Assembly: GCA_903813345.2 (NCBI GenBank)
Contig: CAIIXF020000001.1
Span: 37,725,366-37,789,365 of the forward strand
Source: Owenia fusiformis
Lineage: Eukaryota; Annelida; Polychaeta; Sabellida; Oweniidae
Direction: 5' to 3'
Length of the DNA: 64,000 bases
Part shown: piece by piece, positions 110-64,000 of the stretch
How positions within the stretch are numbered: the stretch's first letter is position 1
Layout of the letters: every line of letters starts with the position of its first letter
The notes under the pieces: model-generated
What the model was told of the DNA's origin: nothing
Database searches by the model: none
Seen by the model: the letters and a program-made list of their open reading frames with translations, nothing else
Program-made: the position numbers and the translations under genes

Positions 110-3100
110 ATGGATCCGAACCACAAGAAGATACTGATCAAAAACAGAGTGGCGTTGATAGATTTAGACGTCAACGAAGAGTTCATCGGCAATCTTAAAG
201 CAAATGGGGTTTTGTCAAGAAATATGGTAGAAGACATAGAGGTACTATTGAAAGATGATCAGTAATTTAGTTTCATTTTTTTGTCTTAACCAAAACCAAG
301 TTTTACTTGACGTCTAGAGATAGTGTGACTATTGGTAATTGGCATCGTTTCAAATGCATCAATTTTCCAAAAGGAAAGATGAATTAAAAATTATGCATAT
401 AAACATAATAGATAGATATTTTTTTACAAGTTATGCGCTAAGGGCCACGCCCATTATTCAGCTATATGACAGGCAATGAGGTGGATGAATTTCATGCTCT
501 CCAACAGAAAATATTCATCCTCACGCAATTTATAGCACTCGGAATTTTCTATTTTAAATCTGTTGAATTTTTATCAATTTAAAAGTGATAAATTTTTATT
601 TAGTGAAAGAATCATTGCTCGATTATAGGTAGAACAACGGCGATCCAGAAAGGCCGGTGTGTTCTTAGATATTTTGGAACGAAGGGGTGAAAATGCATTC
701 GATGAATTCTATGAAGCGCTTATAAAGACTGAACAAGGTCACCTAGCAGACATTCTGAAGCCGGATATGGCTGCATCACGGAAATCCGAACAACTTGCAA
801 GAATTGCAGGCAATAAATCTGCATTACCACAATCAAATTCAACGGGACGCCATTTTCAGTCAAGCACGGTTCAGAGTATGAACGGACAACATATACATTA
901 CCCATCAGAGGATTTCAACGTCCGTTCTTCCATACCAGTTGAAGATGAGGAATTACCCAGTGGTAAGCATCAGACAGTATAGTACACCTTGTACACTACC
1001 TTTCAGTATACTAAACAAGGATAGTGTAGTCCAGAAACGCTAGAAGTCACACTTTAGTAACCATCTTTAATATGTTCCGCCACATTCACTTTTCAAATGG
1101 TATGATTCATTTGATTACGAAAATGCTGTTTGCTATAAACGTTTTTTTAGGATTATTGTATGTGTTTAGAATTGTATTGACAATTATATGAAGATGTCAC
1201 GAGGCTATCGTATTTTCAGAGTGGCCACCCAAGAACTGGGATCCGTATAAAGAAATAGAACAAATGAAAGTCATGGGGCATCCGTCTGACTGGCCGACGA
1301 AAGTTCACGATCGTTTTGTTGGAAATAGTAAAGAGGTAATCGTTTACGAATCTCTGGGTACCAATTTTTACGATCAAATCAAATTATAACATATTCAAAG
1401 AAGACACCCGCCATGGTGAAGATTCAATAGACCAAATTAAGAATTAAAGTGCCCGATAAACTATAAAATGCGCATGCGTCCAGGTGTTGATAAACTATAA
1501 ATAGCGAAAATCCAGGGTTTGTCATCACAAGGTAAGCCAGGACGTGTTGAGAGAACAGCTAGTGTTGATATTGAATTTATATGTAGCCAGATAAACTTCC
1601 TTATTGAAATTACATATGGTTATTAGCAATACTTTGTAGGTGCTAAATAATAAAATATTTAGAGTATATATGAGAAAAATTGGTCATTTCGAACCTGTTG
1701 AAAAGTTTGTGGCTCTCGGCTACACCGGGGAATTTACTTCCATGAGTACACACATAAATGTGGGGTTCCCCAAGAGGTACGCGACAAGGTGACCTGGCAT
1801 CAAATGTGCTACTAAATGCTACTATCGAGAAGATAAAATAACGAATACGACAATAAGTTATAATTGCATGTGACAATTCCGAGCCTTCATCTCACTGAAG
1901 TATTTTGAAGTGAAAATAGGATTTTTGTTTTGATACATGGATTCAGATGAACGTAACTTTATTCTGACAACTAATCAAAACTGAACAAAATTGATTGTAC
2001 GTAACAGACAATTTATTGTTTTACAATGTTCTGATTGGCTAAACGAATGAAACCAACAAATTATGACATGTAAAATGACAATTTTGAAATGTAAAATTTA
2101 AAAGTGACAAACACAACCTCCCTATCCACTCTTTGAGAGCCCTAGTAAATTAATAATATGTACATGCAGCAGTGGTCACTGGCATGTAGCGATTATAGCG
2201 GTCCTGTCTTGGCTTATTGAATTGTTACGAAGTTACGTATGCGGTGCGGAAGTTAGAGAGCAAATGACCATCATTTCAATGTAATAGTTTATGCAGGAAA
2301 ATTGAGATTAGGCCATTGGAGTATTTGTTTCATGCATTTGTAAAACGTTGCCCACTCATAGGTCATACTTATCGTTAAACCAATAACTCAAATATATGCC
2401 CTTGTACACCGATCACCTGTTGAAATTAATACAGGCCGATTTCAACAAATGTAAACGGCGATATATTTAAAATCGTATTCAAGCATGACCACGTCCCAAC
2501 TTCTTTTGTTTTCTTTACAACTAAGCTATGACTGCAGTCTATTCAGTGTTGCGTATCGAACCTTGTTTATTATAAAAATAGTGCAACAACAAGCAGAATT
2601 CACACATTTACCTTATACTTATTCTCAACTGAAGACATTGAATTTATCTCTTAGGTTTTACATTATAAATATCTTAACATGCAGAATACGAAAATAGAGG
2701 CTTAGGCCCAACTTTGTATGAATTTTATGAGAATAATCTGATTTTAGAGAAATGAAAAGAAAAATGTCCACACCCTACACAAAATATTTATGGTTCCCCG
2801 GGAATACGTATGTGCTGCTTGTATATTAGAATCATATTCCAGTTACAGAAAGAAGTACATATCATGCTAAACTATATACAACAGTTATGCACTTGGAGGT
2901 TTTGGATAAAATAACCATAACCCCTATATATTGGCCAAGGGATAATCCCAATATCCTGACTATAGGATATGTTTATCCCATACCAATCTTGGTCATCTGG
3001 TTCACATTGTTAAATCGTGGAAATATTTTAGAATATTCATGTCCAGTTTTGTTTTCTTGGCCGTGGGCGGATTTTCATGTTCTCTCAAATATTCCCATAT

Positions 3101-6100: not shown

Positions 6101-9100
6101 GAACCAATGACGCGAGAAATCTTTGTTTCAATAGATTTTATGTGCTCTTTAAATTTCAAGTTTTTATCAATAATAATTCCAAGAAAGTCAATTTTATCCC
6201 GGAAATTTATGTTCTCATTGCGTATTTTGAGATTCAGATTTGTTTGATTTTTTTGGGTCCAAATAGAATAGCATTGGTTTTGCCAATATTAAGTAAAAGT
6301 TTGTTTGCTTTTATCCAGTCATCTATTGAATTCAAGTTTGCATTAGTTCTAGTCATAAGTTCATTTAAATCATAATCACTATCAAGAAGATTGGTGTCAT
6401 CAGCAAACATAATAAATTTTAGATTAGGGTCAACAAAAGGCAGATCATTTATGTAAAGAATAAATAATAGTGGTCCAAGTACCGAACCCTGCGGAACACC
6501 ACAGTTTAGAGATGATTGTTTAGATTCATAATTGTTAATGGTGACATATTGTTTGCGGTCTTTTAAATAACTTTCAAACCAGGACTTAGCTATTCCTCTG
6601 ATGCCATAATATTCAAGTTTTTGTATCAAAATGTCATGATTAATTGTGTCAAAGGCCTTGGAAAAATCTAATGTTATGCCAATGCTCGTTTTCCCCAAAT
6701 CAGTTGATTTTCGAATTTGTTCAATGAAATATAAAATGGCCATGTAGGTAGAGTTGAATTTCTGAAATCCAAATTGATAAGTAAAAATAATTTAAAAACG
6801 TTCTAAAAACCAGTGAGTTTGGCGTGCATGAGCTTTTCTAACAATTTAGAAAATACCGATAAAACTGAAATTGGTCTATAGTTCGAAGGATTTGTAGTGA
6901 CTCCTTTTTTAAATACAGGTGTTACTTTGGTCAATTTGAGGGCGTCTGGGAAAATACCAGATTTAAAAGATAAGTTAAATATATACAAGAGTGGATCAAT
7001 TAAAAACTGTCTTACAGACTTAATAAGTGATGGTAGAATCCCATCAGGTCCAGGCGAGGAAGATTTTGGAAGACATATTTCTAATTCAAGCTCAGTTTTT
7101 GAGGTCTTTTTGAGATACATAGATGATTGAACTTTTTGAGCTCTTGCTAGGTATTCATAAACAATCGTTTTGCTGAATTAATAATAAAAATTGAAAAAAT
7201 CAAAACCATCGAATATCACTTTTGAAACCATCGAATATCACTTTTGAAACCATCGAATATCACCTTTCAAAGAGTGATATTCGATGGTTTCAAAAGTGAT
7301 ATTCGATGATTTGGGAATTATATCTTCACGTGATATTCGATCTATATCCTTGTAACCATGGGATAAATAAGGGTTATGTACTGGGAGGTTTTGGATATGG
7401 GGTTTTTCCAGAGGGAGATATGCATATCTACCTGAGGGACCGTAGGGACAGAAAGTAGATGTGCATATCTCACGAGGGATGAACCCAATATCCAAACCGA
7501 CCGTACATAACTGCTTTATCCTATACCAAGTAGAGTTTTCAGTAGTACAAGGTGTAAAAAATAAACAAATCATTCATATGCAAAGTCATTTTATTGCATT
7601 TCCACTTTTTTTGGATGCGGGAAGATACGCCCCGAAGCGGGAAGATATGCACCGAAGCGGGAGATATGACGGGAGATATGAAGGTTCTTGATATGGAAAC
7701 CTCAAAATCAGGATACGGGATATATCTTACCAACTTATCTCCCTAAAACCCTACTTGGCATAGGATAAATCAAGATAATTTCTACTCGCATCTAGTCTAT
7801 TCCACATGTTTGGGAAAAGTGTACAGGAAAATCTCCATGTTCAACTGATGTATGATCAACCCTCATAGGGGTCAATCCAGTTATCCGAAACCCAGTTGTC
7901 CGAAACTCAATTCTCCGAAACCCAGTTGTCCGAAACCAAGTTCTCCGAAAATTAGGGGATCTTATCAAAAAATACAATTTCTTTAAACGAATCTTGTTGC
8001 AACCTCTGCGAATCACGACAGCATAACATTTGAATCACGTTGACATCATTGCAAAATTAGGCTGAATATGCTAAGTCAAGACGTTAATTAGCCCACGAAA
8101 GTTCATGGGTAACTTGAGAACTACAAAATACAACCAAATACTTTTCGAACGTACAATAGCAATATTTCTCACCCAACGTCTTCATAGTTTTAGGAACGTA
8201 TTTTAAACGCATGATAGCCAAATATATCAAGATACTATATCTGCCTAAATGAAGTTATCTAGTGTTGACAAAGTTTTGAAATATATTTTATCCAGATCCA
8301 TCAGAAATTAACTTATCCAATACATTTGTTCATAAGAATTCTTTAATTCTACCTCGTTCCCAATACGTCCTCAGACAGACAAGAAATTGAAGTCACACCC
8401 GTTTGTTTGCGTGGCATATTTATACGTATACGCACTTTCTCTGATTATTGTCAAACAAATACATTTCAGGAGAAGAACATAAAAAACAAATGCCTGAAAC
8501 GAATGCCGAAACACAAATCCCAAGTGATTAAGTTTAGAATGTTTTATTCTTTTACGATTTGATAAGAGACTGAGACTAAGAAATTAAATGCGACGAAATA
8601 TTTTGACAACGTAATTTGTATACTGTTTTATTCTTAAAGTTCTATGCGATTACTTATTTTATCTGTTTCAAAATGTTTCATTTTATTTTGCCTATATAAA
8701 AGAGATTAAAGAAGATAAGATAAACTGTTCCGTAATATATATTGTGTTTTAATAACCTTTTTTAGAATCACAATGTAAAATAAATCTCCCGTTCCTGCCA
8801 TTCTGGTAACGCCATGCATTGGATGCAATTCAAAGTGAGAGAGAGATCTATGAATATCAGAATGCGTCCATGCCATTATTTTGGCCAAATACATGGCATG
8901 AAACTGACGTAAGCTTAAGTAAGCTACGCCCCCCCCCTTTCTCTGGTAAATTATGACTTTATTTTTCGGAGTAATGGGTTTCGGACAACTTGGTTTCGGG
9001 GAATTGGGTTTCGGACAACTGGGTTTCGGACAACTGGGGTGTCAATATATACGAATCGAATGTATTCTCGTGTGCATTACAATATCCCCATTGAAACATT

Positions 9101-12100
9101 TTTGGCCTGCAATGGACGTATAATGAATTAGAATATGAGGCCGTGTTATCATTCTAATGTAAAGTCATGGTATTTACTGTGGTATTGGGTTGCAAGTTAA
9201 TATCAGATTCAATGCAAATTAATCATCTAATATCAGATGCGCGATCAGTCCAATAATCTAATTTCAGGTCATCAGTTCGATATCTAGCACTTGTTCTAAC
9301 GACACGGTATTACTAGACTATCATATTATAAATACACACACATATAAAACAATCAAACTGGTACACGATATAAGCACGACTGCTCTTTCAATTGAGTATA
9401 AATGTTGATAAACTTACCCGGAAGCCAAGACATACACGTTTAGACGATGCTATTTTCAGTTCAGTGTAAGAGTAAATGCCCGGATATCGAGGCTTTTTCG
9501 TGTAAAGTTTTAACCAAGCATCTAAAATCGGGTTATATTGCGTGTAGAATTTATCGATATCAGGGCCGCTACATGCCAGTGAGTGGTAGTGTACAGCTTA
9601 TTATCACACTCCGCTTTGTATTCTAAAGCCTGTTGTTTGTAATAACACTGTTCACACTGTGTGTGGGCAGTCAACGATAATCATTGTTTTATCCCGGTAA
9701 TATGACCTCGTAGGTGATGGGCTAGCTCTTAAATTGCGGTATGGAGGTAGAATTTTGGAGACCATGCTAGTTACATCCTAATTTGTAATTCTCACCACAA
9801 TTTGGCAATAATTAAGCAAAATTTTACAGCGTTTAGGAAAAAATCAATATTTATACCCCCCCCCCCACATGACAAAAGTAGGGGGTACATAGAAAATAAT
9901 TAATAACTTTACAAAAACATTATGAATAACCACATTTTTTTCAGAATATATGCACATATATGTCATTAATAACTGGTAAAAAATTGGTGACTATAGGTAT
10001 GATGGTTGCTATGGAAACAGAATGTGATTGTCAACATTTGCTAATTTGTGTCTATTTTGGGGGGCTCGTTAACGAAAAAATGCTATGTAAGCAAGTTATG
10101 CTGCAAAAATAGCATTGATTTAAGGTTTAGAAAATTGCATATATATGTCCTGCATGCATTAAAACTGGAATGATGATTGAGTCTCAATCAGAAATATTTT
10201 TAAAAAAAATTTCTATGACCCACCCCCTCTAAATAATCCAAAGTGGGCGTGGCATTTAAGTGAATGATCAAGCCTACTTAACAGTAGATAACTTCAATTG
10301 TATAACCAGTATTATCACAATTTCAACAGAATGTAGGATTCTGGTATCAGTTAACAGTTTATATGATTTTGTTCATCCCCCTCAATATTTATAACCCCTC
10401 CTTCGTCACCACCACCCCTCCCGCGTGACAAAAGTAGGGGATACCTTGAAAATGATTAATAACTTTACAACAATGCAGCGAATAACCATCAATTTTTCAG
10501 ACAGGATAAATCTATATGTCATCAGTAATTGAAAAAATTCTTGGTAATTATAGGTATGATAGTTTCTAAACAGGATTTGATCTTCACAACTTGTGAAGAT
10601 ATTGGGAGGGGGGGGGGCTGGTTCACAAAGAATACTATCCTAGCGAATTCTGCTGCAGAATTAGCATTGTTTTAAGGTTTAGAAAACTGCATATGTATGT
10701 CCTGCATGCATTAAAATGAAATGATGATTGGGTTTCAATTAGATTTTTTAGATTTCACTATGACCCATCCTTCTTTATAATCCAAAGTGAGTGTGACATT
10801 TAACTGTATGATCAAACTTACTTAATAGTTCAACATTTCTACACAATGTAGGCATCAGTTAACTTTTTATCATTTTGTTCATCCCCAAATATTTATGCCA
10901 CTCCCCTCGTCTTAACATACTAAAAATTACACATGTATATGTCATAAGTAACTGGAAAAAGATTATGGTGATTATAGGTTTGATGGTTGCTATGGAAAAA
11001 GGATTCGATTGTCAAACAAAGGACCGCATGTTGTTTGTAGAATGAATCGGGTTAAAAACATCAATACACTTTAAACCATTTTATTGACTATAAAACTGCA
11101 CCATATAATCCCCAAAAGACATTTCTCTTTTCAAGGATTATCTATGGATTAACACCCAGGTTTTTTATTTTTCAAACTTCAGAGGGCTAGGAATCATTGA
11201 TTATGATCATATAAATGCTGTTTTAAAATAGGTTTAATGTATGCCAATAATTTCTCAAATCGTGTAAATGGTACCCATTCCTTATTCCCTACAATTTTCT
11301 CTTTGAGGAATTCCCATAGCAATCCTATGGTATAGTTCCAAGCAGATTTTGAGATAACAGGAAAGTTAATCATTTATACACACCTCATTGGGTTGTGATA
11401 TAAACCAAAATAATACATCTCTTCATCACTTCTGATCATCAGAACCATGCCTGCTACAATATAATGTATCTTCTGACATTGCTTAGTGTAGATACAATAT
11501 TTCCTGGTGTCAAATCCTAGCTAGATGATGGGGAGATGTACCATAAAAGGAGGTCACGGGGTAGGTACAATGCTGTCAAAATCAAAACCTCAACAATACA
11601 ACCAACAATCAACAGGCACGCAAAGTTCCTTATTGGTATTAAAAAGATTCAGTCACAAACATGTTGTTTATGATGATCAGTGATGAAGATAACAGTTAAC
11701 GTCCATTTGACAGCTTCACAGGCAACAGTACCGTAAAATTACATACAGTTGTGTATTTTCAACAGTATGTTATGGTACTGTTTGGGCTATGGTACTGTAT
11801 GGTATGGTAATATATGGTACCAGACTAAAATAGTATTGTACAGTACCATGGACACTGTACACCACCATAATAGAATGGCACTGTACGGTACTATTAATGT
11901 ACCATGAGTGCAGATTGGTGGTGTTTATCAAGCCATTTGATATCACAGAATCAAGACTCCTATGCATATCATCAGGACTTCCAGCACTTACTCAAGTCAA
12001 AAAATCCACCCAGTGTTAGGAGCTATTGCTTCTTAAGAATTTGTTAAATGCCCGTATAAGGATCAATACTAAATCATTTGATGCGCCCAAATCAAGATGA

Positions 12101-15100
12101 AGAAACACCATTCAGTTTGTAATAAAAACTCATGGAGAGCCATGGAATCATGGAAAGTCCATGAGGACAGATTCTATGGTGCTTAGCAAAAAGCAAATTG
12201 CAGTTATCCAGGGAGAAGGGTGTGTCACAACTTACAAAACAGTGAAAGTGTTTGTGGCAACATGTCCTTTTACCAAGTAGCCAAATTTTCAAACACATTT
12301 TGTCAATTGGCTGATGTTCCATTCTCTGGTGTTTCAAAGTACAGTGATATATCAATCATGTTCTGATATGTAACTCAGTATTGGACAGTCTTTCCAAACT
12401 TTCCATTCTTCATGTCATTCTTAAATGTTTGGTACTTTGTGATAACTCATTGTTTTCAATATCAACTAAGGCTTTAGTTGAAGTAGCAGTAATATAAGTT
12501 ATTGAATGATTTGAAATGCAATACAGTATATATTCTGCTCAAGAAATTCTGTGTTGGAAAGAGACAAAGTCGAGTGCCAATATATAATATTGAGAGCAGA
12601 ATATATCCTGTATTGCACCTCAAATCATTCTATAACATTTTTATCGTGTGGTCTTAGGCCAATACATTTTACTCAGAAGGTAATTCCTATGAAATATTCT
12701 GTATTGCTACTGAGATTGTCCCCTCCGTCCCAATATTTTTTGTATTGCTAAGGAGATGATCAATAAGGACAATCTCAGTAGCAATAGATTGGTACAGAAC
12801 AAGAACTGACCAATCAGAGGGCTTCATTTTACAGATCATACGATAAGTAAGCTGAATACTCTCCAGATTCATGGAATTTTGAAATCAACAAGGATTCCAA
12901 TTCCTCATTCCTGACTTTATGAACTCTGAAGGCCTTGTTGAAGTGTTTTCCACTACCATCAATTGAACTGCAAATATCTAAGATTCTATAAGAATGTCAT
13001 CGAACCCTTAATCTCATATATTTTCCCACAGCACAGAAGGGTATGGAATGTCCCCAATCTAATGAAAGCATTGCAGTGAAACATTAAAGGATCGGGCAAT
13101 ATTATAGACCTTCTTTTCTGCTGCTAAATCAAAGTTTGTTAATGTCACCTATTTTTATAATCTCATCAAAAATTTATTTGTGAATGACATCCTATCATTA
13201 TTTCAGTTTTAATATATAAAGGACACAGTTCCTAAACCTTAAAACAATGGTATTTTGCAGCATAATTTACTAGCATCTACACAAATTCACAACAATCAAA
13301 TCCTGTTTCTATAGAACCATCATCACCAAGAATTATTTCAAATTACTGATGACATATACATTTATTCTGTCTGAAAAATTGGTGGTTATTTGCTGCATTG
13401 TTGTAAAGTTATTAATCATTTTCAATGTATCCCCTACGTTTGTCCTGCGGGAGGGGTGGTGGAGGAGGGGGAGGGGTTACAAATATTGAGGAGGGATAGA
13501 AAAATCATAGAAAATGTTAACTGATACAAGAATCATACCTTCTGTTGAAATTGTGATAATACTGGCTATACAATTGAAGTTATCTACTGTTAAGTAGGCT
13601 TGATCATTCAGTTAAATGCCACGCCCACTTTTGATTATTTAGAGGGGGTGGGTCATAGAAAAAAAATTTAAAAATATTTCTAATTGAGACTTAATCATCA
13701 TTTCAATTTTAATGCATGCAGGACATATATATGCAATTTTCTAAACCTTAAAACAATGCTATTTTTGCAGTATAACTGGCTAGCATAGGATTTTTTCGTT
13801 AACTAGCCCGCCCAAAATAGACACAAATTAGCAAATTTTGACAATCAAATTCTGTTTCCATAGCAACCATCATACCTATAGTCACCAATTTTTTACCAGT
13901 TATCAATGACATATATGTGTATATATTCTGAAAAAATTGTGGTTATTCATAATGTTTTTGTAAAGTTATTAATTATTTTCTAAACCGTACTAAACGAAAA
14001 AACGCAAATAAGAGAAAGCTTTCACACACATATAAAAAATGAACTAGTCTAATCCGCCAGTATAAACTCTGTGCTATACGTCGCCGGGCCAGGCGCACAC
14101 TTTAAGTACAGTATTTGAACCCATAGTCCCACCTATAGAATCTGATATTTTAATAATTTTCAATGAGATAAATATGGCTCAGAGAATTGGGCTAACTTGT
14201 AGATTATGTACCGCGGCGTGAATTATTTTTGAGCAAATTTTTCTCCCCGTGATGTGATGAATTCTTGGAGTTGGGACCATCCCCTCAAAAAGGTTTTACC
14301 ACTTCTTTAGATTGCCTATGTGGAAGTTTCATGTTTACACCCCCCCCCGCCCCCCTTTATAAGTCTAGTAACTGGAAGTCCCCCTTTGGAACACTTATGA
14401 AAGTCTGTTTATGTTTTGTAATTAGAAATTCAAAAAAGGGTTAATTGCCGAAATATCAAGAAACAAAATTAAGATTTAAAACATTGACACTCTGATATGC
14501 TATCCAATGCCAAACTTATGGAGGGGGTGTACATCATTCGTTAAAAATGTCACTCTCAGAATCATCTTGATCCATCAAGGTAATTCATAACTGAAGGAAT
14601 ACACTTGTTTAACAGTATGTCCAGAATGAATTTTGAATTTTGAGGCTACATATGCATTTTAAGATAAAGTATTTTATTTCTAAGACATTTTCCAAATTGA
14701 ACTTTTCAAGGTTTAAGTGTACTATAAAAGATTTTTTTATCATAACTGTGGATTTTTTTGATATTCACAGATGGGTCTGATATTCCAAGATATGGCCAAA
14801 TGATATGTTTTATTTTAGTGCTATGCGATGAAAGGTAGGAAAGGAAGAGCAGTGATCATCAACAACCAGAACTTTGATGACACGAGCACTTTGACGAATA
14901 GATCAGGTTCTGAACAAGATGCAGAGATCCTCTCTAAATTATTCACAAAACTTGGATACGATGTTCGTAAATATGATAATTTGACTGCATGTGTAAGTTT
15001 ATAGTGTACAATTTTAATAAACACATTTCTAAAGTGACGAAAACCGCGAACGAAAATAGATCATTACAAGTCACCACTTGCCATTTGTTACAGACGCCGA

Positions 15101-17306
15101 AAATTGATAAATGACCCTTTCTATTTATTTTCCGTTCTCCATATAATTGCAAAAACAATATTTAGAAATAACAAACGTCATTAACATCTACATATTTCTG
15201 ATATTAACTCCGTGATCAATAATGAGTTTTGCCTAAATTCATATAGGATATGCAGAAATATTTGAACAACGAGGCTAAGCAAGATTATCATAACTATTGC
15301 TGCTCGTTTGTTTGTGCTATTCTAAGCCATGGGGGTGAGGGAAACACAATATATGGAGTGGACGGAGACACAATGAGTGTGAAGGACATCACACTGATTT
15401 TTAACAATCAAAATTGTGAATATCTATCTGGTAAACCGAAGATTTTCATCATTCAAGCCTGCCAAGGAAGTAAGTTTTCCAAGTTAAGAATTCTTTACCT
15501 TTCGAAAAAGAGCCATTCTGTTGAATTTACATGCACAGGATAGAAGAGTCCTCGATTTCATTCTCTTTTGGTAATTTATTTAGATACAAAAGACACTGGT
15601 GCACTCGACAGAAGTGATAGCAGTAACAATATCCTTGAGAGTTTGTCACTTGACACAACGGATGGTTCCATCAGTCCTCTGAAAGGCGGGTGTGAATCAT
15701 CTCATGGGAGATATTATGTTCCCGATGGCGAAGATTCAGTTGATGGTTCTTATCCGGGACTTGATAGATGCGACAGTGTACCAACTGACTCGGACATCCT
15801 GGTGGCCAATTCAACCACTGAAGGTAAACACACGTTGGTAACTTATTTCTTATCGCCAAATAAACTGACTGCATGACGTCTTTGTAGTACAATTGTGACT
15901 TTGTGTCTAAATTCTTAGAGGTCGGGAGTGTAGGTTCTTTTAGGCGCTACCAAAATTGAATTCCTGCCTGCGTTAGTCTCTTAAATAACAAGCTATCACT
16001 GATCATTATTAGAATTAATTGTCTTATGATTTTTACTTTCATGTTTTTCATGCTTTTAGGGAAGACTTCATGGCGTGTAGGTGGTCGGGGCAGTTGGTTT
16101 ATACAAGCTGTTGTATATGTGTTTGCTAAAATGGCCCACAATACTGATATCAGTAAACTATTTGTGAAGGTAAATTGCATCATATTCATTTTAGTAACAT
16201 GAATATTCCCACTCCCTTGGTTACCAATATAACTTCAAACTAAGCATAGAACAAATAAACTTGATGGAATTATATCATATTGAACATATTTGTCATTTGT
16301 CAGTTACCATGTCAACAATATATACTTTTATTATATCATTGCTAGAATTTGTGTCCTTTGATTGGCTGATTCAGTACCATGTGATCAAAAATACCAAAGC
16401 GTATTTCACAGCTCCCTTAATTTTGGAATTATAAAAGACGTATTGCCCGGCGTATTGCCCGCCCGGGAATTCTGAATCGTCCCGTTTCAGTTGTGACGTG
16501 CATCAAAAAGGCAGACTGAAAAAGATTTAAAAGTCTGAATTCCGATGAAAAGAACGACATCTTGACGGATGTGCATCGGAATGACATCTAATGTCTTAGA
16601 ACATTTTCAAGTGTTATGTGGACGAAATAGACGTTAAATCTATCGATAAAATCGTTCTGGATGGAATTTTAGAGGATTTTTTTGGGAACTGCGAACTTGG
16701 GGAATATTACAAGAGTGCCAGTCTGCAAAGTAAGCGAATGTCTAGCAATGATATAATAAAACAAATATTTCATTCTATGTTCGGGCAATACCTGTTACAC
16801 TTTCAATGATTTTTGCAGCATGTATTTCCCTCGCCCTCCGGGCTGCGGGCAATACATGCTGCAAAAATCATTGAAAGATGAACAGGTATTGCCCTCCATA
16901 GAATGAAATATTTGCTTAGTATGTTAAGATTGTTTTGGATACACTTTTCACTCAATCTTTGCACACCGGTGTAAAAGAAATTATGGTCCACTGGGGATTA
17001 TGGTCCCCTTTCTTAAAGGCCCTTACTGGCCCTGATTGTGGATACGATAATAAGGGAAAGAGTTGTGTTTAGGTCACCATATAAATCAATGGAAAGTAGG
17101 ACCATACTTTGATAGGACCTCCTACCCTTTTACACCGGTTCTAAAATTTGAAAATAATTCATATAAAAAATATGGCTATCTTTTAGGTTAATGGACTCGT
17201 CTCAAGCGCAACAACTAAAACAAATTTCAAACAAGCATCGAAAGTGGAAAATACGCTAAGAAAAGATCTGTATCTCTATCCTGGTATAGGCGAAAGTTAC
17301 TGCTAG
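110..17306 (+). CDS. CARD-containing caspase (caspase 1 of a tandem pair), 8 exons, 482 aa
   Basis: Predicted cysteine-aspartate protease of cell-death or innate immune signalling. Exons: 110-241, 629-962, 1220-1335, 14819-14992, 15247-15469, 15584-15823, 16060-16169, 17187-17306. All junctions are GT-AG and the phases join without a stop. The CARD occupies about residues 1-90, across exons 1 and 2. A linker follows, then the p20 subunit with the pocket Arg in NRSGSEQD, catalytic His280 in ILSHGGEG and catalytic Cys324 in QACQG. An Asp-rich inter-subunit linker (exon 6, e.g. VPTDSD) comes before p10 with SWR (410-412), GSWFIQ and the terminal LYLYPG. The start at 110 is preceded by an in-frame TGA at 80-82, and its MDPNHKK matches MDSKHKK of the paralogue at 21230. 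Intron 3 is about 13.5 kb and full of transposons. All catalytic motifs are present, so it should be an active enzyme. Whether it acts as initiator or in inflammation cannot be told. Confidence 0.9.
2885..3310 (+). repeat. Dispersed repeat family Z, copy 1 (palindromic GCGGGCAGATATA core)
   Basis: This segment has a clear reverse-complement match at about 48300-48850. The shared parts include the stretch around TGTCTGTGTTTTCTCCATTG, the TTACAAATTATGAACAAATA stretch and a nearly perfect palindrome of about 28 bp (GCGGGCAGATAT/ATATCTGCCCGC) at 3258-3285. Open frames here are not conserved as protein between the copies. It appears to be the outer part of an older inverted-repeat element that was interrupted by the mariner at 3328. 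Confidence 0.7.
3328..4424 (+). mobile_element. Mariner-family DNA transposon, 1097 bp, long TIRs, decayed transposase
   Basis: The ends CGAGGGGTGATCAATAAGTA and its complement are inverted repeats that continue for about 200 bp on each side (3328-3545 and 4205-4424). The element is bounded by TA at 3326-3327 and 4425-4426, the Tc1/mariner target duplication. Inside, 3687-3878 on the plus strand still resembles the mariner transposase C-terminus: LLHMVNASAH stands for the usual LLHDNAxPH and YCPDLLTCDLF for YSPDLxPxDYxxF. The rest of the transposase is gone, so it is non-autonomous. Confidence 0.88.
4427..5114. repeat. Palindromic repeat block with two GAGCGYAGCGA hairpins
   Basis: Copies of CCATCGAATATCAC at about 4440-4540 precede two large hairpins. 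One is at 4555-4677, with its loop around GAGTGAGCGTAGCGAGAG. The other is at 4980-5114, with its loop around GAGTGAGCGCAGCGAATG. Both have arms of about 45-55 bp containing ATCCATGAGTGGAT. No coding potential is convincing. The block looks like part of an older foldback-type element. Confidence 0.65.
5312..7185 (-). mobile_element. LINE (non-LTR retrotransposon), 5'-truncated, CR1/Jockey-like reverse transcriptase remnant
   Basis: On the minus strand, 7120-6803 encodes the RT start (SSSPGPDGI, NYRPISVLSVFSKLLEK). The frame breaks near 6790. Then 6743-6234 encodes palm motifs A (LDFSKAFDTINHDIL), B (GVPQGSVLGPLLF) and C (FADDTNLL) and a downstream GKTNAILF. Region 5788-5594 encodes the usual C-terminal tail TRQ...GPNLWNALPHD. 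The 3' end at 5317-5338 is a (TTGAA)n run instead of poly(A), as in CR1/L2-type LINEs. No endonuclease domain is present and several frame breaks exist, so the copy is dead. The exact clade needs a tree. Confidence 0.88.
7200..7370. repeat. Tandem and inverted CATCGAATATCAC repeats; right arm of the older element
   Basis: Three direct copies of about 20 bp (ACCATCGAATATCACTTT) are followed by inverted copies, making a local hairpin. Positions 7321-7370 are the reverse complement of the sequence split by the mariner at 3300-3327 plus 4427-4455, so the two flank the LINE as arms of one older inverted-repeat element. Confidence 0.65.
7371..7760 (+). repeat. Dispersed repeat family Y, copy 1
   Basis: Begins with the GTACTGGGAGGTTTTGGATA motif and ends near a CCCTAAAACCCTACTTGGCA stretch. 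A reverse-complement copy lies at about 43540-43795. Internal short direct repeats of CGAAGCGGGAAGATATG occur at 7617-7670. No coding capacity was recognised. Confidence 0.6.
7866..9041. mobile_element. Foldback/MITE-like element with ends built of GTTTCGGACAACT repeats
   Basis: The left end (7866-7950) holds about five units of the type CCGAAACCCAGTTGT. The right end (8965-9041) holds the same units in inverse orientation. The roughly 1 kb between them is AT-rich with no recognisable gene. Terminal inverted repeats made of short tandem units are typical of foldback elements. Confidence 0.65.
11722..11912. repeat. GGTACTGTAT-rich low-complexity patch
   Basis: Irregular repeats of GGTACTGT and its complement ACAGTACC, in both orientations, inside the centre of the 4.1 kb inverted-repeat element. 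Confidence 0.5.
12499..12637. repeat. Long hairpin
   Basis: About 43 bp starting AGTTATTGAATGATTTGAAA is repeated in inverse orientation at 12594-12637 with few mismatches, leaving a loop of about 50 bp. A second hairpin (ATTGCTACTGAGATTGTCC) is at 12704-12785. Confidence 0.7.
15067..15105 (+). repeat. ACAGACGCCGA repeat, truncated copy
   Basis: TTTGTTACAGACGCCGAA next to GTCACCACTT. The same motif pair occurs at 21413-21525, 24903-24978 (inverse) and 37145-37270. This copy lies in intron 4 of caspase 1. Confidence 0.55.
16440..16917 (+). mobile_element. Transposon fragment with possible tyrosine-recombinase-like coding remnant and a large hairpin
   Basis: Lies inside intron 7 of caspase 1. 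From 16618 to about 16740 the plus strand reads LDGILEDFFGNCELGEYYKS, followed by ASLQSKR. This recalls the N-terminal region of animal Crypton-type tyrosine recombinases (a leucine-rich helix followed by G-E-Y-Y and a short basic stretch). That is family memory, not a search. It runs into a hairpin at 16758-16917 with arms of about 75 bp and a GC-rich loop, both arms containing GGGCAATAC. No catalytic recombinase residues are present. Confidence 0.4.
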
Positions 17307-21229: not shown

Positions 21230-24200
21230 ATGGATTCCAAACACAAAAAAGTTCTGAACAAGTACAGAGTGAGGTTGCTACAACATCTAAAAATCAGTTC
21301 TTCGTTTATCAGTTACCTTCAAGCAGTGGAGATTATGTCAAGGGCCATGAAAGAGGATATCGAGGTATGTTAAGTCTTACAACAGCAAATAAGGCATAAA
21401 CATACAATATGTCACCGCCTGTCATTTGTTACAGACGCCGAACGCAGAACACAAACCACCAAACGCCGAACACCGTCCACAAAAATGTTAGAGACTTGAA
21501 CAATATGTCACCACTTTTGGTGATTACATAAAAACGAGTACCTGGCAACGATGTGTTCGGGACAGTACTCTGCAAGTTTCGCTTCAGTGTTATTCATATC
21601 CCCACTTACACCAGTCAAATAAAAGAATGAATATGTCTTCCATAAAATAAAGCATTACATCGACCAACCGAAAATGATAGAACTACTTTTCCCAAAACTC
21701 TATCTTATATTTAGATTGAACAGAAACGTTCCAAGAAAGCAGCACTGTTTCTTGATTTGTTGGAAAGGAGAGGGGAACGTGCTTTTGATGAATTCTATAA
21801 TGCGCTCATTCACACTGACCAAGCTGAACTTGCAGATCTCCTGAAGCCAGGCGTAGCAATAGAACGCAGAGCTATACAACAGCAACGTGTTGAAGAGAAG
21901 AGTGCTCAATTGGCTGCGATGAGTTATCAGTTGCAACTGAATCCTGCCGTTGTGGATCAATACCAATCAAGCCAATCAAGCCAATATCAATCAAGCCAAA
22001 ATCCAAAGGGCCAATCTCAGCCAAACGACATAGTTGTTATTTCTAATATGAACTCGATGCGTGGGCAACCGTTGGGCACATCTTCAGATGACGGAAATTG
22101 CATAAGTATAACCTCTTTGGTTGAATCAAATCAGTCCTCCTGTCCAATAGAAAATGATGAGAGACCTTTGGACGGTAAGACTACTCATATATTTTAAACA
22201 TTGACAAAACCGATCTTGTCTTTATATACGTCCGACCTTTAGAAAGAAAATAGTCACTAATGTTAGCAGGATACCTAAACCTTTAAATCATACATCATTC
22301 ATCCCCTTTATAGAATGGCCAGCCGACGATTGGGCTCCAGTTACAGAAATAGATAAAATGAGGACAAGTCCAGATGATTGGAAAACTCGAATTTCAGGCG
22401 GAAATAAGGTTAGTACTTAAATATTTGGGTATAACTTTATTTTATTTATTACAATTCTTGATCTCCCACATATGATAATCTTTTCAGTATTACACAATGA
22501 TGAAAAGAGGAAGGGCTATTATCATAAACAATGCCAAGTTCAATGGGAAGATGGGTAACAGACCAGACTCCAAAGAGGATGTAAAAAACCTTACCCATCT
22601 ATTTAGTCATCTTGGATACACCGTTTCACCAACGAAAAAGTGGCAGAATTTAACTGCAGAGGTTTGTCTTTTACATTTACATTTTGTGTACATTAGTAGA
22701 AAAGAACATCCTGATTAAGATTTCAGACAAGTTGTATTAGCATTGTTTGATTGCACAAGATATTGTTGAAAAGGCAAGCCTATGTAATTTTAGAACATGC
22801 GTTCACAATTGCGTAAAGAGAGCAGACATAACGATCACCAGGATGTTAGTTCATTTGTTTGCGTCATCTTGAGTCATGGGAACAATGGATTGATATACGA
22901 TGTGGACGGTGCTATTATAACAATTGAAGAAATAAAGACAATGTTCAACAGTAAAAATAGTCCACATCTGGCTGGTAAACCAAAGATCTTCATCATTCAA
23001 ACCTGCAAGCTCAGTAAGTTCATCACTAAATCTTGCATAAGCCATTAACCATTTTTGTACTGCGTACATACATAGCATGCATTGTAGCTTTTTCACCGAT
23101 ATAAAATAATTGATTATAAACGTTGAACATTCAAAAGTTCTATATAAAGGGGGGGGGGGCAAAAAACAATACCCAAGTTTAAGGATGAATATCATATGAT
23201 ACATATCATATGTGCTATTCACTGCTGATTTCCAAATTGTGGAAAATTGACTCGGTAAAACGTGAACTTTGGCATCTTCAAAAAAGGTACATTTATACAA
23301 GTTTAGTGCAAACTTCAATAACAATACTAATATCTTTTAAATTAATTATAAATTGTGTAATACTCTCAAATAAATTTATGATGATTCAGTCAAGCATATT
23401 GAGTGCATCTGTACTGCACTATGGAGGGAATTTGGGAATTTTCATTTTTTTTTAAATTTTGGGCGCTCATGGCACCCATGGTGTCATGCCTCCACAATAA
23501 AACAAAGATTTTTCAATCGGAAAGTGTCATATTGTTAGGAAATGACTTATCTTTAAAAGGATATATAATACATAAAATGGTTTAGCATATATCATATGAA
23601 TCATTCATGTTTAAACTTGGGTAATGTTTTTATGGCCCATCCTGTACAATTCTTGATTTTGTTATATGCTTATGTTGGCTTTCCAGCTGCCAATGGTATG
23701 GACAATGAGTCTAGCATAGAGTCGAACTTGAGCAGCATGCCAAGCATGTCATTTGACATAAATGATGGTGATCGTAAAGGACTCCAAGGTCCAAACGATG
23801 TTAAAGAAGAGTGTGACAGTGTACAAGTCCCCGATGATTCAGATATGATAGTCGTTTCTTCAACGACAGAAGGTATTTTTGTGAATACCATACCACCTTT
23901 ATTCTAACAGTATGTCAGTAACTGACATTAATCACAAGGAAATACATTAATGCTTATTCAAGAACATCTGTTCTATTTGCATTCAACGAAGTTAACGTTG
24001 ACACAGAGGACATGATAGAGATATCTAAAATCATCTTAAGTATGACAAACAAAAGGTCACGCATGATGAGAGCCTATGTAGGTAACACAGGTTGCTCTTA
24101 GTTATTGACAGTATTTAAACAATCGGGTAATACTGCAAGTTTGTGTTTCAAACAAAATAACAAAGACATGTACATAATATAGATTGGTTTATTTTTATGT

Positions 24201-25225
24201 TCGATTTCACAATACATAGATTGTAATTTATAATGTGTTAAACTACTCTGTTTAAATACAGGCAAATAAATGATAATAATTATAATAATAATAATAATAA
24301 TAATAATAATGTCGCTGCTAAAATCTCCACCAAAAAATACAATTTTTCAGACATCGCACAGGCCATCATATGTGAGAAATTCTGCATTTACTTTAATTGA
24401 CATTTTCAAGTGATATGTTAACCGCAGTACATCTTTCATACAGGTACAGATTCATTTTCTTCTGGCCGCAAAGGCAGTTGGTTCATACAGGCTGTGGTTT
24501 ATGTGTTCGTGAAGCATGCACACAACACAGAAATAAGAGAGCTCTTCACCAAGGTAACAAAAACTGGTTGAATAAATACTTAAATAATTTTAGTATTTTA
24601 ATGTACTATTGTAGTAAATCTTCTTATCACATATATTTTGGAGTTACTGTGTCCCATCATCAGCAATAGAGCTTGTCTGGTTCGATCCTTGTTTAGAGTC
24701 CTCCAGCATTCTATAACAACCAGAATATACCAAAAACGTGGTGTGGGAAAGTGTCTGCCTCAGCTAAATACATTATTATCGCACTTTCAAAGTGCTATAC
24801 TGTCGCCGTCCTATGTTCGTTGGCTTGCTTGCGTCGGTGTAGTCTTGTTTTCCACTTTGGCTTAATGCATGTTGTCCTCCTAAGGTACTGCCAGTTACAA
24901 TTCAATTTTATGGTCGGTGTTCGGCGTTAGGCGGTAGGTGTTCCGCGTCTGTAACAATTGTCAAAAGTGGTGACATTTGCCTGTTAATGCCTTGCATCTT
25001 GCAGGAACTTGTCATTGTACATTGCCGCAATCTCATAATAAGTATAACCAATTGATGATTTCATATCAGTTCCATTATGTATTGTAGGTCAACCAACTTA
25101 TGTTAAAAGAGGGTACAAAGCAAGCCAGGAAACAGCACGCCAGCGATACACCCAAATTGACTTCGCAGATTGATCACACTTTACAGAAGGACCTCTATCT
25201 TTATCCTGGATTGAACTCCGATTGA
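21230..25225 (+). CDS. CARD-caspase-like protein (caspase 2 of the pair) with degenerate active site, 8 exons, 505 aa
   Basis: Tandem paralogue of the gene at 110-17306. Exons: 21230-21364, 21715-22174, 22314-22408, 22488-22661, 22794-23013, 23687-23872, 24444-24553, 25088-25225. Intron phases are identical to those of the first gene, and exons 4 and 7 have identical lengths (174 and 110 nt). The CARD is at about residues 1-90. The CARD-p20 linker is long and Gln/Ser-rich, with a YQSSQ-type repeat at about 128-140. The p20 His316 in ILSHG and Cys359 are present, but the pentapeptide is QTCKL instead of QACxG. The pocket motif RxG is RPD, and the p10 SWR is SFS (427-429), so the Arg that binds the P1 aspartate is missing. 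GSWFIQ and LYLYPG are kept. The reading frame is fully open, which argues against a pseudogene. It may be a regulatory pseudo-caspase or an enzyme of changed specificity. A start at 21182 is also open, but 21230 aligns with the paralogue. Confidence 0.88.
21413..21525 (+). repeat. ACAGACGCCGA repeat with internal short tandem units
   Basis: TTTGTTACAGACGCCGAA is followed by irregular 7-8 bp units of the type CCGAACAC or ACCACCAAA and then AATATGTCACCACTTTTGGTG. It lies in intron 1 of caspase 2. Confidence 0.6.
23145..23650. mobile_element. MITE in caspase 2 intron 5
   Basis: AATACCCAAGTTTAAGGATG near 23170 and its inverse near 23610-23630 form terminal repeats of about 45 bp that begin GGGC next to a poly-G run and end GCCCATCCTGTA, a mariner-like end. 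No transposase was seen. It makes up most of the intron directly after the active-site exon. Confidence 0.55.
24271..24311. repeat. (TAA)n microsatellite
   Basis: Uninterrupted AATAATAATAAT run of about twelve units in intron 6 of caspase 2. Confidence 0.9.
24903..24978 (-). repeat. ACAGACGCCGA repeat, inverse copy
   Basis: The reverse complement reads GTCACCACTTTTGAC, TTGTTACAGACGC and a GGTGTTCGGCG-type unit row. It lies in intron 7 of caspase 2. Confidence 0.55.
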
Positions 25226-25549
25226 TCTGAAACTTTAAAAAAACAATTCCTTCGGGGGACTCATATTCCCACATGCACCATACGCCAAAATTGTGTTATA
25301 ACTTTATGGTATATATAACGTGACTGAAATCATTGCTAAAACCATTATTTCTCTAAAGTCATCATGTATCCTCCATTGATCCCATATGCGTACACTTCGT
25401 CTTCACTGCTTCTAACTTGATCAAGGTGAATATGAAGATGTGTATCTATGAGTTTTCGACACATTTCAATCGCGACACATGACACGATCCATTTTTAGAT
25501 AAATTCAATTATTTTTGTTCAACATCACCACAGAAAACATATGACTCCT

Positions 25550-26605
25550 GCTTCAAAAGCTTGCCTACTTTAAAAAAGCTGCCATTTTTGTCTCGCAAAA
25601 TTTACTTTTAGACCATGTACTAGTTAGCTTACCTCCAGCGATGGGATTTCCCTTTTAAATTGTTTTGGAGCAAAAATGTTTCAATCATGTGTCTTATCTG
25701 CAATTAAACACATGAACTTATTGAACGACCTGGTATGTTATATGAATGAAAAAAAGTAAAACATATATGGCAAGAAAAAAGAATACAATTAAAATGTGAA
25801 ATTATGTATCAACATATTGTTTTAGGATTTTTATCTGGAAATAACATCACCAACTAGAAATGTCATAAAAACAATTTTAGGTATCACAATGCATAACAAC
25901 TGGTGTAAATTTTCAGAAGACAATAACAGTCGGAGACTATTTGAGATTCGAACAACTTTTATGAGAAATTCAAAATATAATTCATGCTTATTTAAACTCT
26001 AAAAATGAATATATATTTTGTCTGTATGGATTGAAACCATCATCAAGAACTTTTGAAAAAAAAACATTTATTTTTATCAATATTTTTGTAAATCCTGCTT
26101 ACACTCAATTTATTGTATTGTTATTTTACATGTTTTATATTTGTGAATAAAAAAAATAAAAAAATAAATACAGAAAACCCCTCTATGACTGATTTAAAAG
26201 CGCCTACTTTCAAAATGGTCGGCACTTTTGTCTCACAAAATTCACTTTCGACCATTTACTAGCTAACATAATATTATATGTTGATAGGATTCCCATTTTA
26301 AATTATTTTTGTTCATTTTTACTAACTTTATAAATTGTTGAACATCAATACAAAAATCCTCCCACCCCCAATGATTCCTGATTCAAAAGCTTTATTTTCA
26401 AAATGGTCGCCATTTTTGTCTCGCAATATTTACTATCACACCTTTCACTAGCTATTTTTTTTATCTGTCGAAAGGATTCCCTTATGTTATTTTTGTTTAA
26501 CATCAAAACTGCAGGAACTTCTGCTTCAAAAGCTTGCATATTTTCAAAAGAGCCACCACTTTTGTCGCAAATATTTCACTTTTTGCCCTGTACCATGTGA
26601 GCCCA
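25550..26605 (+). repeat. Diverged tandem repeat, about four units
   Basis: Units start near 25553, 26190, 26375 and 26520. Each holds a CAAAAGC or AAAAGCGC motif, a GCCATTTTTGTCTCGCAAAA-like core and an ACTAGCTA stretch followed by GGATTCCC. The last three are spaced about 150-185 bp apart. An insertion separates the first from the second. It lies downstream of caspase 2 with no coding function seen. Confidence 0.6.
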
Positions 26606-34074: not shown

Positions 34075-35555
34075 TTATGAATTCTCTTCTTTTACTAAGA
34101 TTTCATCAAGGATTTCCCTCAATAAATCCTCATCAGTTTCTTCCAATTCCTGTTCAGTTACTGTCTTTGTATGTTGGTTATTGCATTCATTCCCCTTGCA
34201 AACACAGAACAATGTACATGATAAAGATGCCTTGGAGCATGAACATTGCCCAGTTCTACATACATTGCCCTCTGATGCACATGTGCACTTAATGAGCTGG
34301 AGAATCCCTTCAGGGGCACAGGGTGTATCCTTGGGCATTGTTGTTGGGACAATTGAGCCTGTGCTGTTAATTTCCCAACCATAATCTGTCGGAAGGATAA
34401 GTGGGGGGTCAGGCATATCAGCATTTTTCCATACAGCTACTTGGAAATGAGCTCGCTTCACATGCTGGAAAAATGCTTCTGTTGTTTGTGGGAGGGATTT
34501 TAGCTTTGGTGCATTTGTAATGCGTTTTGCAGCAATTTATTTGCCCATACAGCATATCTCACATCAGACATTTTGTCTGTGACTTTAGGTGTAATTCCAT
34601 AACATCTAGAAACAAATTCTGTTGAAGTTTTCTCAACTTCAGTCATGTCTGCATTGACATCTCCCAAGTTAGTGAATGAGTATCTATTTAACACCTACAG
34701 GACTGTTAGCTTGCCAATTCCATGCATGCAAGATGTTGTATCACTGCCAGAGAGACCATGCGCAGCTAACAAGTTTGGGATTTTTAATTTGTGTTCATTT
34801 ACGGTTACATTTATGTTAATGTTTGCTCGGCCAGATGATGTTCCCTCCATTATGATGTTATTTTCCATTAACTTGTGCTTGAGACAGTGATGAAGAAGTA
34901 GAAGGAAAACATCAGTATCATCACTGAGTACACTGCTATTCTGTTGGCCTTTACTGGCAGCATGCAGAACCTGGTGTACGATAACAACATCTGCTTCTTC
35001 TTGAGTGTTCCTTAAGTCATCACATTGGTCAATATTGCTTTTGTGAATTTGTACAGGTGTTGGATCAGGACCTGTGATAACAAGGATGTTGGAGAATGAT
35101 CCTTCACTAGCTTTTTGAGTGAGATGGTCGATGACACATTTTATCAACTGGACCTTGTTCTCAGTCACATTCAGAACAACATTCTGTGCAGGGAGAGGTG
35201 TGTCAGAGCTGAACTTATACACTCTCCTGGCTGATTGAGCTCGAGATGACCTGGTGCTGTTCTTTATGCTATTGTCTTTATATCTGTCAAAGATAAGGTA
35301 TACATCTGATTTGGTTAGGAGTCTCAGGATGTACTTAGTGAAAGCAATACAGAAGTTTTCAATTTTGCCAGCCATCGGCCATGTTATGATCCAAAGGATG
35401 GCACACCCATCAACGACACGTACATTGCAATTGTTTCCTCTTGAGGTCTCCTCAATCTGTAACTTTTGTTTCAGTGTTGATTTTGAAGTTGTGATATTAA
35501 TTTCTCCATATTCATCAAATAGTGATAATGGAGGGAACATCATCTGGCAGAGCAA
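34075..35555 (-). pseudogene. Decayed transposon protein with GSDTTS block and Cys-rich tail, left/middle copy
   Basis: Three minus-strand pieces in order: 35555-34695, 34694-34500 and 34461-34075. The first contains IFDRYKDNSIK, SDDTDVFLLLLHHC and AAHGLSGSDTTSCMHG. A TAG stands where the other copy has Lys (GKLTVL/K/VLNRY). A frameshift follows near 34500. The last piece has PTDYGWEIN and a Cys-rich tail (CTCASEGNVC, CSCSKASLSC). This domain order is known to me from uncharacterised transposon-borne proteins in cnidarians, echinoderms and other invertebrates, often compared with PIN/FEN-type nucleases. The N-terminus is cut by the inversion junction. Confidence 0.65.
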
Positions 35556-36305
35556 ACATTAACATTAATGCAACTGTAAATGAACACAAATTAAAAATCC
35601 CAAACTTGTTAGCTGCGCATGGTCTCTCTGGCAGTGATACAACATCTTGCATGCATGGAATTTGCAAGCTAACAGTCCTGAAGGTGTTAAATAGATACTC
35701 ACTCACTAACTTGGGAGATGTCAATGCAGACATGACTGAAGTTGAGAAAACTTGAACAGAATTTGTATCTACTATAGATGTTATGGAATTACACCTAAAG
35801 TCACAGACAAAATATCTGATGTGAGATATGCTGTATGGGCAAATAAAATGCTGCAAAACACATTACAAATGCACCAAAGCTAAAATCCCGACCAACAACA
35901 GAAGCATTTTCCCAGCATGTGAAGCGAGCTCATTTCCAAGTAGCTATATGGAAAAATGCTGATATGCCTGACCCCCCACTTATCCTTCCAACAGATTATG
36001 GTTAGGAAATTAATAGCACGGGCTCACTTGTCCCAACAACAATGCCCAAGGATACACCCTGTGCCCCTGAAGGAATTCTCAAGCTCATTAAGTGCACATG
36101 TGCATCGGAGGGCAAGGTATGTAGAACTGGGCGATGTTCATGCTCGAAGGCATCTTTATCATGTACATTGTTCTGTGTTTGCAAGGGGAATGAATGCAAT
36201 AACCAACATACAAAGACAGTAACTGAACAGGAATTGGAAGAAACTGATGAGGATTTATTGAGGGAAATCCTTGATGAAATCTTAGTAAAAGAAGAGAATT
36301 CATAA
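35522..36305 (+). pseudogene. Same transposon protein, inverted right-arm copy
   Basis: The plus strand holds 35522-35755 (AAHGLSGSDTTSCMHG) and 36042-36305 (the Cys-rich tail), with breaks between them. It is the mirror copy of 34075-34860 and lacks the nuclease-like part, which lies only in the unpaired centre. Confidence 0.65.
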
Positions 36306-63798: not shown

Positions 63799-64000
63799 GT
63801 AAGATACATTTCTTTTGAATGGAATTTCCTCAAAATTATAATACATATTACAATGTTTTTGTAATCACCTATTGTAGTATCAAAATACTACAATAGTCTC
63901 AAGGTCAAAAAAAGTTTAAAATGTGGTAACGTACATCTACTAGTTTATGACTGTTCCACACATGGATGACAGATAGTTTCCAATAGCTCATCATGTTTAC

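Follow-up and report, generated by a model that had tools for sequence, protein, structure and literature searches.

A CARD-caspase gene with an altered active site adjacent to a canonical paralogue in the annelid Owenia fusiformis: a candidate pseudocaspase

The DNA considered here, henceforth ‘the window’, is a stretch of 64,000 nucleotides from the annelid Owenia fusiformis (assembly GCA_903813345.2, contig CAIIXF020000001.1, forward strand, positions 37,725,366 to 37,789,365), that is, a portion of C1, a contig of chromosome size in a genome of 498 Mb. It carries two adjacent genes that each encode a CARD-bearing caspase. The second of these, gene 2 (window 21230-25225, plus strand), consists of eight exons which together encode a 505-residue CARD-caspase, one that is altered at several active-site positions. 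Gene 1, which is upstream on the same strand and ends 3.9 kb before gene 2 starts, has the canonical residues. An original prediction, addressing window positions 22794-24553, i.e., exons 5-7 of gene 2, held the product of gene 2 to be inactive or no longer Asp-specific, and perhaps to be a regulator of its neighbour.

The introns of gene 2 are all GT-AG and consistent in phase, giving a single reading frame with no internal stop, and a splice-aware alignment that uses gene 2's own protein as query recovers the same exons (the last of them minus its stop codon). All exons are on the plus strand. The CARD is split between exon 1 (21230..21364), which supplies its N-terminal half, and exon 2 (21715..22174), which supplies its C-terminal half plus linker sequence, with exon 3 (22314..22408) continuing that linker. 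The large subunit starts in exon 4 (22488..22661), where Arg255-Pro256-Asp257 is encoded at 22560-22568, and exon 5 (22794..23013) encodes Ser315-His316-Gly317 (22872-22880) as well as the pentapeptide QTCKL (22998-23012). Exon 6 (23687..23872) encodes the intersubunit linker, with residues 363-412 being the segment for which the gene 2 branch is longest. Exon 7 (24444..24553) then encodes Ser427-Phe428-Ser429 (24452-24460), in place of SWR, along with GSWFIQ (from 24473), and exon 8 (25088..25225) the end of the small subunit, including KDLYLYPG, and the stop codon. Pfam matches consist of a CARD over residues 7-89 (E 1.5e-12) and Peptidase_C14 over residues 237-476 (E 9.3e-50). This is the architecture of a CARD-bearing initiator caspase, i.e., an N-terminal CARD followed by large and small caspase subunits, with the prodomain, per Pfam, being a single CARD rather than tandem death effector domains (DEDs). 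The top solved relative of the whole protein is Caenorhabditis elegans CED-3 (E 1.6e-36), while the CARD taken alone is nearest to those of Apaf-1 (9e-6), RAIDD (5.5e-5), and caspase-9 (5.7e-4).

Gene 2 has QTCKL (Gln357-Thr358-Cys359-Lys360-Leu361) for the canonical QACxG pentapeptide, SFS for SWR, and RPD for RSG, with C344S and G367D as further substitutions. Retained are both members of the catalytic dyad, His316 and Cys359, as well as GSWFIQ, from residue 434. The original prediction described and numbered these residues correctly, and its statement that the dyad, GSWFIQ, and every splice site are intact is confirmed by the eight-exon model. Counting along an alignment to caspase-3, R255 of gene 2 corresponds to Arg64 and S429 to Arg207. 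As the loop extending from TTEG to GSWF is of the same length in gene 1 and gene 2, the replacement of Arg by Ser is not an artefact of alignment.

In caspase-1 the P1-binding residues are Arg179, Gln283, and Arg341 (PMC11121540). The arginine of SWR, described in the original prediction as binding the P1 Asp, is one of three pocket residues, and gene 2, though lacking the complete Arg-Gln-Arg set due to R429S, keeps the other two, R255 and Q357. Similarly, the change from RSG to RPD is real, but it leaves in place the arginine, R255, which is the S1 residue of that motif. With two of three P1-binding residues as well as the whole of the dyad kept, the gene 2 pocket therefore is weakened rather than erased. 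The oxyanion hole is formed by the backbone NH of the catalytic Cys and that of the Gly which follows the catalytic His, and gene 2 has both C359 and G317 in place. The Gly found two residues after the Cys, which the original prediction viewed as shaping this hole, is not one of those contributors. Nor does an altered pentapeptide on its own imply inactivity: C. elegans CSP-1, with SACRG, kills cells in a manner that requires its Cys (PMC3591282), and in bivalves there is a caspase-3/7 group that varies at precisely that last Gly (PMC7836458). An alternative exon capable of restoring QACxG or SWR was not found on either strand of 22200-26500, over which xACxG, QxCxx, SWR/AWR/SFR/AMR, GSWF, and SHG were scanned for; beyond the known exons there were just scattered, out-of-context matches.

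For comparison, 16 other caspase loci (17 stretches) were cut from the genome and modelled, of which 14 were usable, resulting in 16 sequences once genes 1 and 2 are included. Two loci were dropped before counting, C4:21.08M because it yielded no caspase alignment fit for use, and C6:35.65M because a small subunit was not seen within the 5.5 kb that were read. This list of loci is a lower bound, as only the best candidates were scored, and the paralogue models, which come from a home-made splice-aware aligner, contain a few false introns in linkers. At least four of the genome's caspases are CARD-caspases, i.e., gene 1, gene 2, and two further canonical ones, C1_26.77M and C4_11.0M (at C1:26.77M and C4:11.0M, respectively); intron-split CARDs score weakly in the genome search, and more therefore may exist. 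Only gene 2 among these four is altered. Defining near-invariant positions as those at which the other sequences agree with no more than one exception (a leave-one-out rule), gene 2 departs at 6 of 30, namely G257D, C344S, A358T, G361L, G367D, and R429S, and keeps the remaining 24, including R255, S315, H316, G317, Q357, C359, G434, and W436. By the same rule there are no departures for gene 1 (0/26) or C1_26.77M (0/26) and two for C4_11.0M (2/27). The SWR arginine is found in 15 of 15 other sequences and is lost in gene 2 alone, while the Gly of QACxG is absent from gene 2 and C1_60.9M only.

Other loci from this survey are worth describing in their own right. C1_60.9M (L005; C1:60912000-60915500, minus strand, with matches at C1:60913296-60913922) is a second and more degenerate caspase, with TQG for SHG, i.e., with loss of the catalytic His, along with QRCQW for QACQG, NLR for SWR, and GSLF for GSWF. 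Its second exon is open over 210 codons. If a dead caspase is sought, this locus is a stronger candidate than gene 2. L009 (C6:35649500-35655000, minus strand) has a caspase large subunit with QACQS, no small subunit being found in the 5.5 kb read, and forms part of a C6 cluster (35.65-35.93 Mb) that holds three further caspase loci. L013 and L014 (C7:23.67-23.69 Mb) are caspase genes that adjoin one another and pair with a support of 99.9/100; each has SFR instead of SWR.

Gene 1 (window 110-17306, plus strand) is a canonical CARD-caspase of 482 aa that matches both CARD (E 1e-11) and the caspase domain (E 1e-56) and carries the motifs RSG, SHG, QACQG, and SWR. Its eight exons, all on the plus strand, are exon 1 (110..241; CARD), exon 2 (629..962; CARD plus linker), exon 3 (1220..1335; followed by a 13.5 kb intron), exon 4 (14819..14992; RSG), exon 5 (15247..15469; SHG and QACQG), exon 6 (15584..15823; intersubunit linker), exon 7 (16060..16169; SWR and GSWFIQ), and exon 8 (17187..17306; stop codon). 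Gene models and residues together support the claim that a canonical gene here has beside it a paralogue which is intact but whose substrate pocket is damaged. Within the long third intron of gene 1 are pieces of an element like a long interspersed nuclear element (LINE) (5692-7573, minus strand), one of which matches Pfam RVT_1 (6234-6791, E 1e-24) while another, 6803-7177, has no Pfam match, and also an inverted repeat (3322-3534 and 4218-4430; arms of 213 nt, 94% complementary and 683 nt apart) that resembles mobile element ends. Elsewhere in the window are two open stretches with CUB domains (62755-63818, plus strand; E 9e-7 and 7e-7), belonging to an unrelated gene, and three long open stretches without Pfam matches (34075-35862, minus strand; 153, 287, and 115 codons), possibly a mobile-element gene.

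The sharing by genes 1 and 2 of an eight-exon plan, including intron phases, favours an origin by tandem duplication, and that duplication is old, the proteins being 47.0% identical over 449 positions. The best conserved exon between them is exon 7, of the small subunit (24 of 37 residues identical). The four CARD-caspases are split from the other 12 caspases with support of 98.5/98, though within a protein tree of the caspase domain the grouping of gene 1 with gene 2 has support of just 54/60. An approximately unbiased (AU) test on that domain gives 0.59 for gene 2 as sister to gene 1 and 0.37, which falls short of rejection, for an arrangement in which gene 2 branches first within the CARD group; a grouping of gene 1 with C1_26.77M is rejected (0.02). 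Codon-model log-likelihoods (one w, where w is dN/dS, the ratio of nonsynonymous to synonymous substitution rates) for the three quartet topologies are -5214.5, -5221.1, and -5220.2, with the pairing of gene 1 and gene 2 ahead of the others by at least 5.7 log units. The codon model thus favours the same pair that the AU test favours weakly. Of the six possible pairs of CARD-caspases, identity at four-fold sites is significantly beyond chance in one, gene 1 with gene 2, at 43% (31/72, p 0.002) versus 27% expected by chance; the other five pairs are at 28-36% (p 0.07-0.44). Of the possible pairings, that of gene 1 with gene 2 has the best support.

Pairwise dN/dS between gene 1 and gene 2 is 0.19 (449 codons), with w = 1 rejected both overall (likelihood-ratio test, LRT, 112) and by region (CARD 28, large subunit 27, small subunit 44), whereas a neutral gene 2 along with a normally constrained gene 1 would be expected to give a pairwise value near 0.5. 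Of 1000 neutral simulations at each of 0.4, 0.7, 0.85, and 1.5 substitutions per codon, none remained stop-free; at 0.2 substitutions per codon, 16 of 1000 did. Because it is without stops and because of that pairwise 0.19, gene 2 does not look, from its codons, like a dead gene. Estimates for individual branches employ our own codon model over the four CARD-caspases, for which synonymous sites are close to saturation, with a doubtful stretch of C4_11.0M (gene 2 residues 45-67) masked in those codon and rate tests which use C4_11.0M. On the favoured topology the gene 2 branch has a w of 0.27 versus a background of 0.07 (p 0.027), with w = 1 not rejected (LRT 3.28, p 0.07). The two remaining topologies leave the excess non-significant (p 0.08-0.10) and reject w = 1 (LRT 5.1 each, p 0.024). 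Over a 66-codon CARD subset, which is too few codons, w for the gene 2 branch is above 1 but not different from 1.

Gene 2 evolved faster than gene 1. Its branch in the tree is longer, 0.81 versus 0.32, and relative-rate comparisons find more unique changes in gene 2 with either outgroup, that is, 71 versus 34 with C1_26.77M (p 0.0004) and 59 versus 30 with C4_11.0M (p 0.003). By segment, and with C1_26.77M as outgroup, these counts, gene 2 versus gene 1, are 8 versus 7 for the CARD, 13 versus 10 for the first linker, 21 versus 9 for the large subunit (p 0.04), 15 versus 3 for the intersubunit linker (p 0.008), and 14 versus 5 for the small subunit (p 0.06). With C4_11.0M they are 10 versus 5, 9 versus 10, 17 versus 11, 11 versus 2, and 12 versus 2, respectively. 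An excess in the intersubunit linker and small subunit of gene 2 thus is seen with both outgroups.

The reading we tentatively prefer, with a probability approaching but not reaching one half, is that gene 2 is a crippled tandem duplicate of a CARD initiator caspase (of caspase-2/9/CED-3 type) which modulates an active paralogue. In its favour are the six departures from near-invariant residues, against at most two in the other CARD-caspases, the loss of an SWR arginine that all 15 other sequences have, the faster change relative to gene 1, the intact CARD, the conservation of exon 7, the pairwise w of 0.19, and the absence of stops and, over 22200-26500, of a restoring exon. In the duplicate the canonical Asp pocket would be gone, with recruitment and the fold retained. 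Ser429, Asp257 (positioned two residues beyond the S1 arginine that is left), and Leu361 within the active-site loop would together leave little or no caspase activity; gene 2, that is, probably does not cut as a caspase any more, and the residues are compatible with the prediction of a protein that is inactive or no longer Asp-specific. The CARD may still join the platform of gene 1 or of its sister caspases, upon which the gene 2 caspase domain could then pair or compete with the active paralogue. Activation might be tuned up as a consequence, as with cFLIP-L or a dipteran decoy, or down, as proposed for caspase-12. As the genome has two more canonical CARD-caspases, C1:26.77M and C4:11.0M, gene 1 would be the obvious though not the sole target.

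Known systems provide precedents. Caspase-12 bears a CARD and sits among active relatives. It is described as a pseudocaspase, with Arg341 being Lys in mouse, and has been proposed to modulate an active relative (PMC11121540), so the CARD-instead-of-DED aspect of the original prediction is preceded rather than novel. By its residues gene 2 would fit this kind of pseudocaspase, as a CARD-caspase in which the same S1 arginine is replaced (R429S); caspase-12 belongs to the vertebrate inflammatory group, however, while gene 2 presumably represents another animal lineage, and in gene 2 the Cys loop is altered as well. The analogy to cFLIP holds in that cFLIP adjoins an initiator paralogue, caspase-8, and in that cFLIP-L likewise combines a death-fold prodomain with a caspase domain (PMC11121540, PMC7586951). 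It does not hold in that cFLIP has DEDs rather than a CARD, and has lost both catalytic His and Cys (R315, Y360), both of which gene 2 keeps (PMC11121540, PMC7586951). A caspase-like decoy of Aedes aegypti is, like gene 2, a duplicated caspase-like gene, and is an enzymatically inactive one reported to enhance the activity of its paralogue (PMC3141678, citing Bryant 2010), differing in being of insect lineage. CED-3, caspase-2, and caspase-9 share the CARD-caspase architecture of gene 2 but have the canonical pocket of gene 1, and genes 1 and 2 have their CARDs encoded over two exons, as do caspase-2/9 and as is seen in oyster (PMC7836458).

In bivalves such variants are common. In Mytilus coruscus, 40 of the caspase domains (78.4%) reportedly are without canonical pentapeptide residues and many lack the P1-binding Arg/Gln, and two caspase-2/9 genes are among those in tandem arrays (PMC10967218). 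A survey of oyster and cockle reports QTCRA, a caspase-3/7 group in which only the final position of QACRX varies, and members of caspase-2-like type that keep the Cys but differ greatly in their p20 motifs (PMC7836458). Paralogues of oyster, M. coruscus, and blood cockle thus resemble gene 2 in having an altered pentapeptide or P1 Arg/Gln and in being tandem duplicates, but the combination of QTCKL, SFS, and RPD with an intact dyad, next to a CARD paralogue of canonical type, was not met in the portions of these surveys that were consulted. Titles and abstract openings within the literature likewise yielded no such gene in a comparable genome, a negative which weighs little.

Several observations count against the view that gene 2 is a crippled modulator. 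First, His316, Cys359, Gly317, Arg255, and Gln357 are all retained, which is more than a dead enzyme would need. Second, branch dN/dS does not separate gene 2 from the others, given that gene 1, for which too the favoured topology does not reject w = 1, has a w of 0.22, and that the most deviant branch is C1_26.77M (w 0.024, p 0.0045). Third, sparing of the CARD relative to the caspase part is not significant with either outgroup (p 0.12 with C1_26.77M; Fisher 0.75 with C4_11.0M), and neither is clustering of the six losses at the active site (4/10 versus 2/20, p 0.14, for a self-chosen active-site set). Lastly, other caspases deviate as well, that is, C1_60.9M at 13/33 near-invariant positions, C2_6.53M at 5/30, and two C7 genes at 3/29 each, with non-CARD caspases besides C1_60.9M and C2_6.53M ranging from 0 to 3 departures.

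From a different perspective, gene 2 might still work as a cysteine protease but with its P1 preference shifted, whether towards non-Asp residues or towards breadth, which we view as possible though rather unlikely. Consistent with such a protease are the retained H316, C359, G317, Q357, and R255, and the constraint implied by the pairwise w, while Ser429 in place of Arg, along with Asp257 beside Arg255, should make for a less basic pocket. Within clan CD the P1 class follows the residues found at this pocket, acidic ones in MALT1 and gingipain-R (PMC4626109), broad substrate recognition has been suggested for M. coruscus caspases with altered Arg/Gln (PMC10967218), and CSP-1 is active despite its SACRG (PMC3591282). 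This is the main alternative, one kept in play by the intact dyad and by the CSP-1 and clan CD pocket precedents. G361L and A358T impinge on the active-site loop too, however, i.e., beyond the P1 pocket, and, of the five segments measured, it is in the intersubunit linker, the site of caspase-activating cleavage, that the gene 2 branch is longest. A single S1 change, moreover, the Arg341Lys of mouse caspase-12, has been taken as loss of function (PMC11121540). A more specific proposal, one we consider improbable, is that the S1 pocket has been re-cut, with Asp257 paired to and masking Arg255 and Ser429 removing the second arginine, such that a non-acidic P1 would be accepted by a CARD-recruited protease that sits on the platform of its Asp-specific neighbour.

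It is doubtful that gene 2 is still an ordinary Asp-specific caspase, with its changes tolerated or compensated. The dyad and two of three S1 residues are indeed present, and bivalve proteins with QTCRA or QACRX are catalogued as caspases (PMC7836458), but six near-invariant residues are altered together, among them an arginine which every other sequence compared possesses, and no exon to restore it was found over 22200-26500. Comparably improbable is that constraint on gene 2 has relaxed and that the duplicate is decaying, with a stop codon yet to be acquired: a longer branch than that of gene 1, faster change that is most marked in the intersubunit linker and caspase part, and w = 1 not being rejected for the gene 2 branch alone on the favoured topology are as decay would have it, but 505 codons without stop or frameshift, splice sites that are all intact, the complete loss of stop-free sequences when neutral change is simulated from 0.4 substitutions per codon upwards, the rejection of w = 1 pairwise (for the whole as well as CARD and both subunits) and for gene 2 on the two less likely topologies, and the keeping of both GSWFIQAVVYVF and KDLYLYPG speak against it.

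Pseudocaspases are an already established kind, including as they do cFLIP, caspase-12, the dipteran decoy, and many bivalve caspases, and as such duplicates are known, what is gained here is comparative rather than conceptual. Genes 1 and 2 nevertheless form a clean adjacent pair within one genome, one canonical and one altered but with the same exon plan, and thereby are suited to asking how an initiator caspase comes to lose its P1 pocket while keeping those parts responsible for recruitment and dimer formation. Should the pocket of gene 2 in fact be re-cut, then this would represent a change in P1 class within animal caspases. If instead gene 2 regulates its neighbour, then a CARD pseudocaspase would have arisen one more time, in a lineage other than that of caspase-12.

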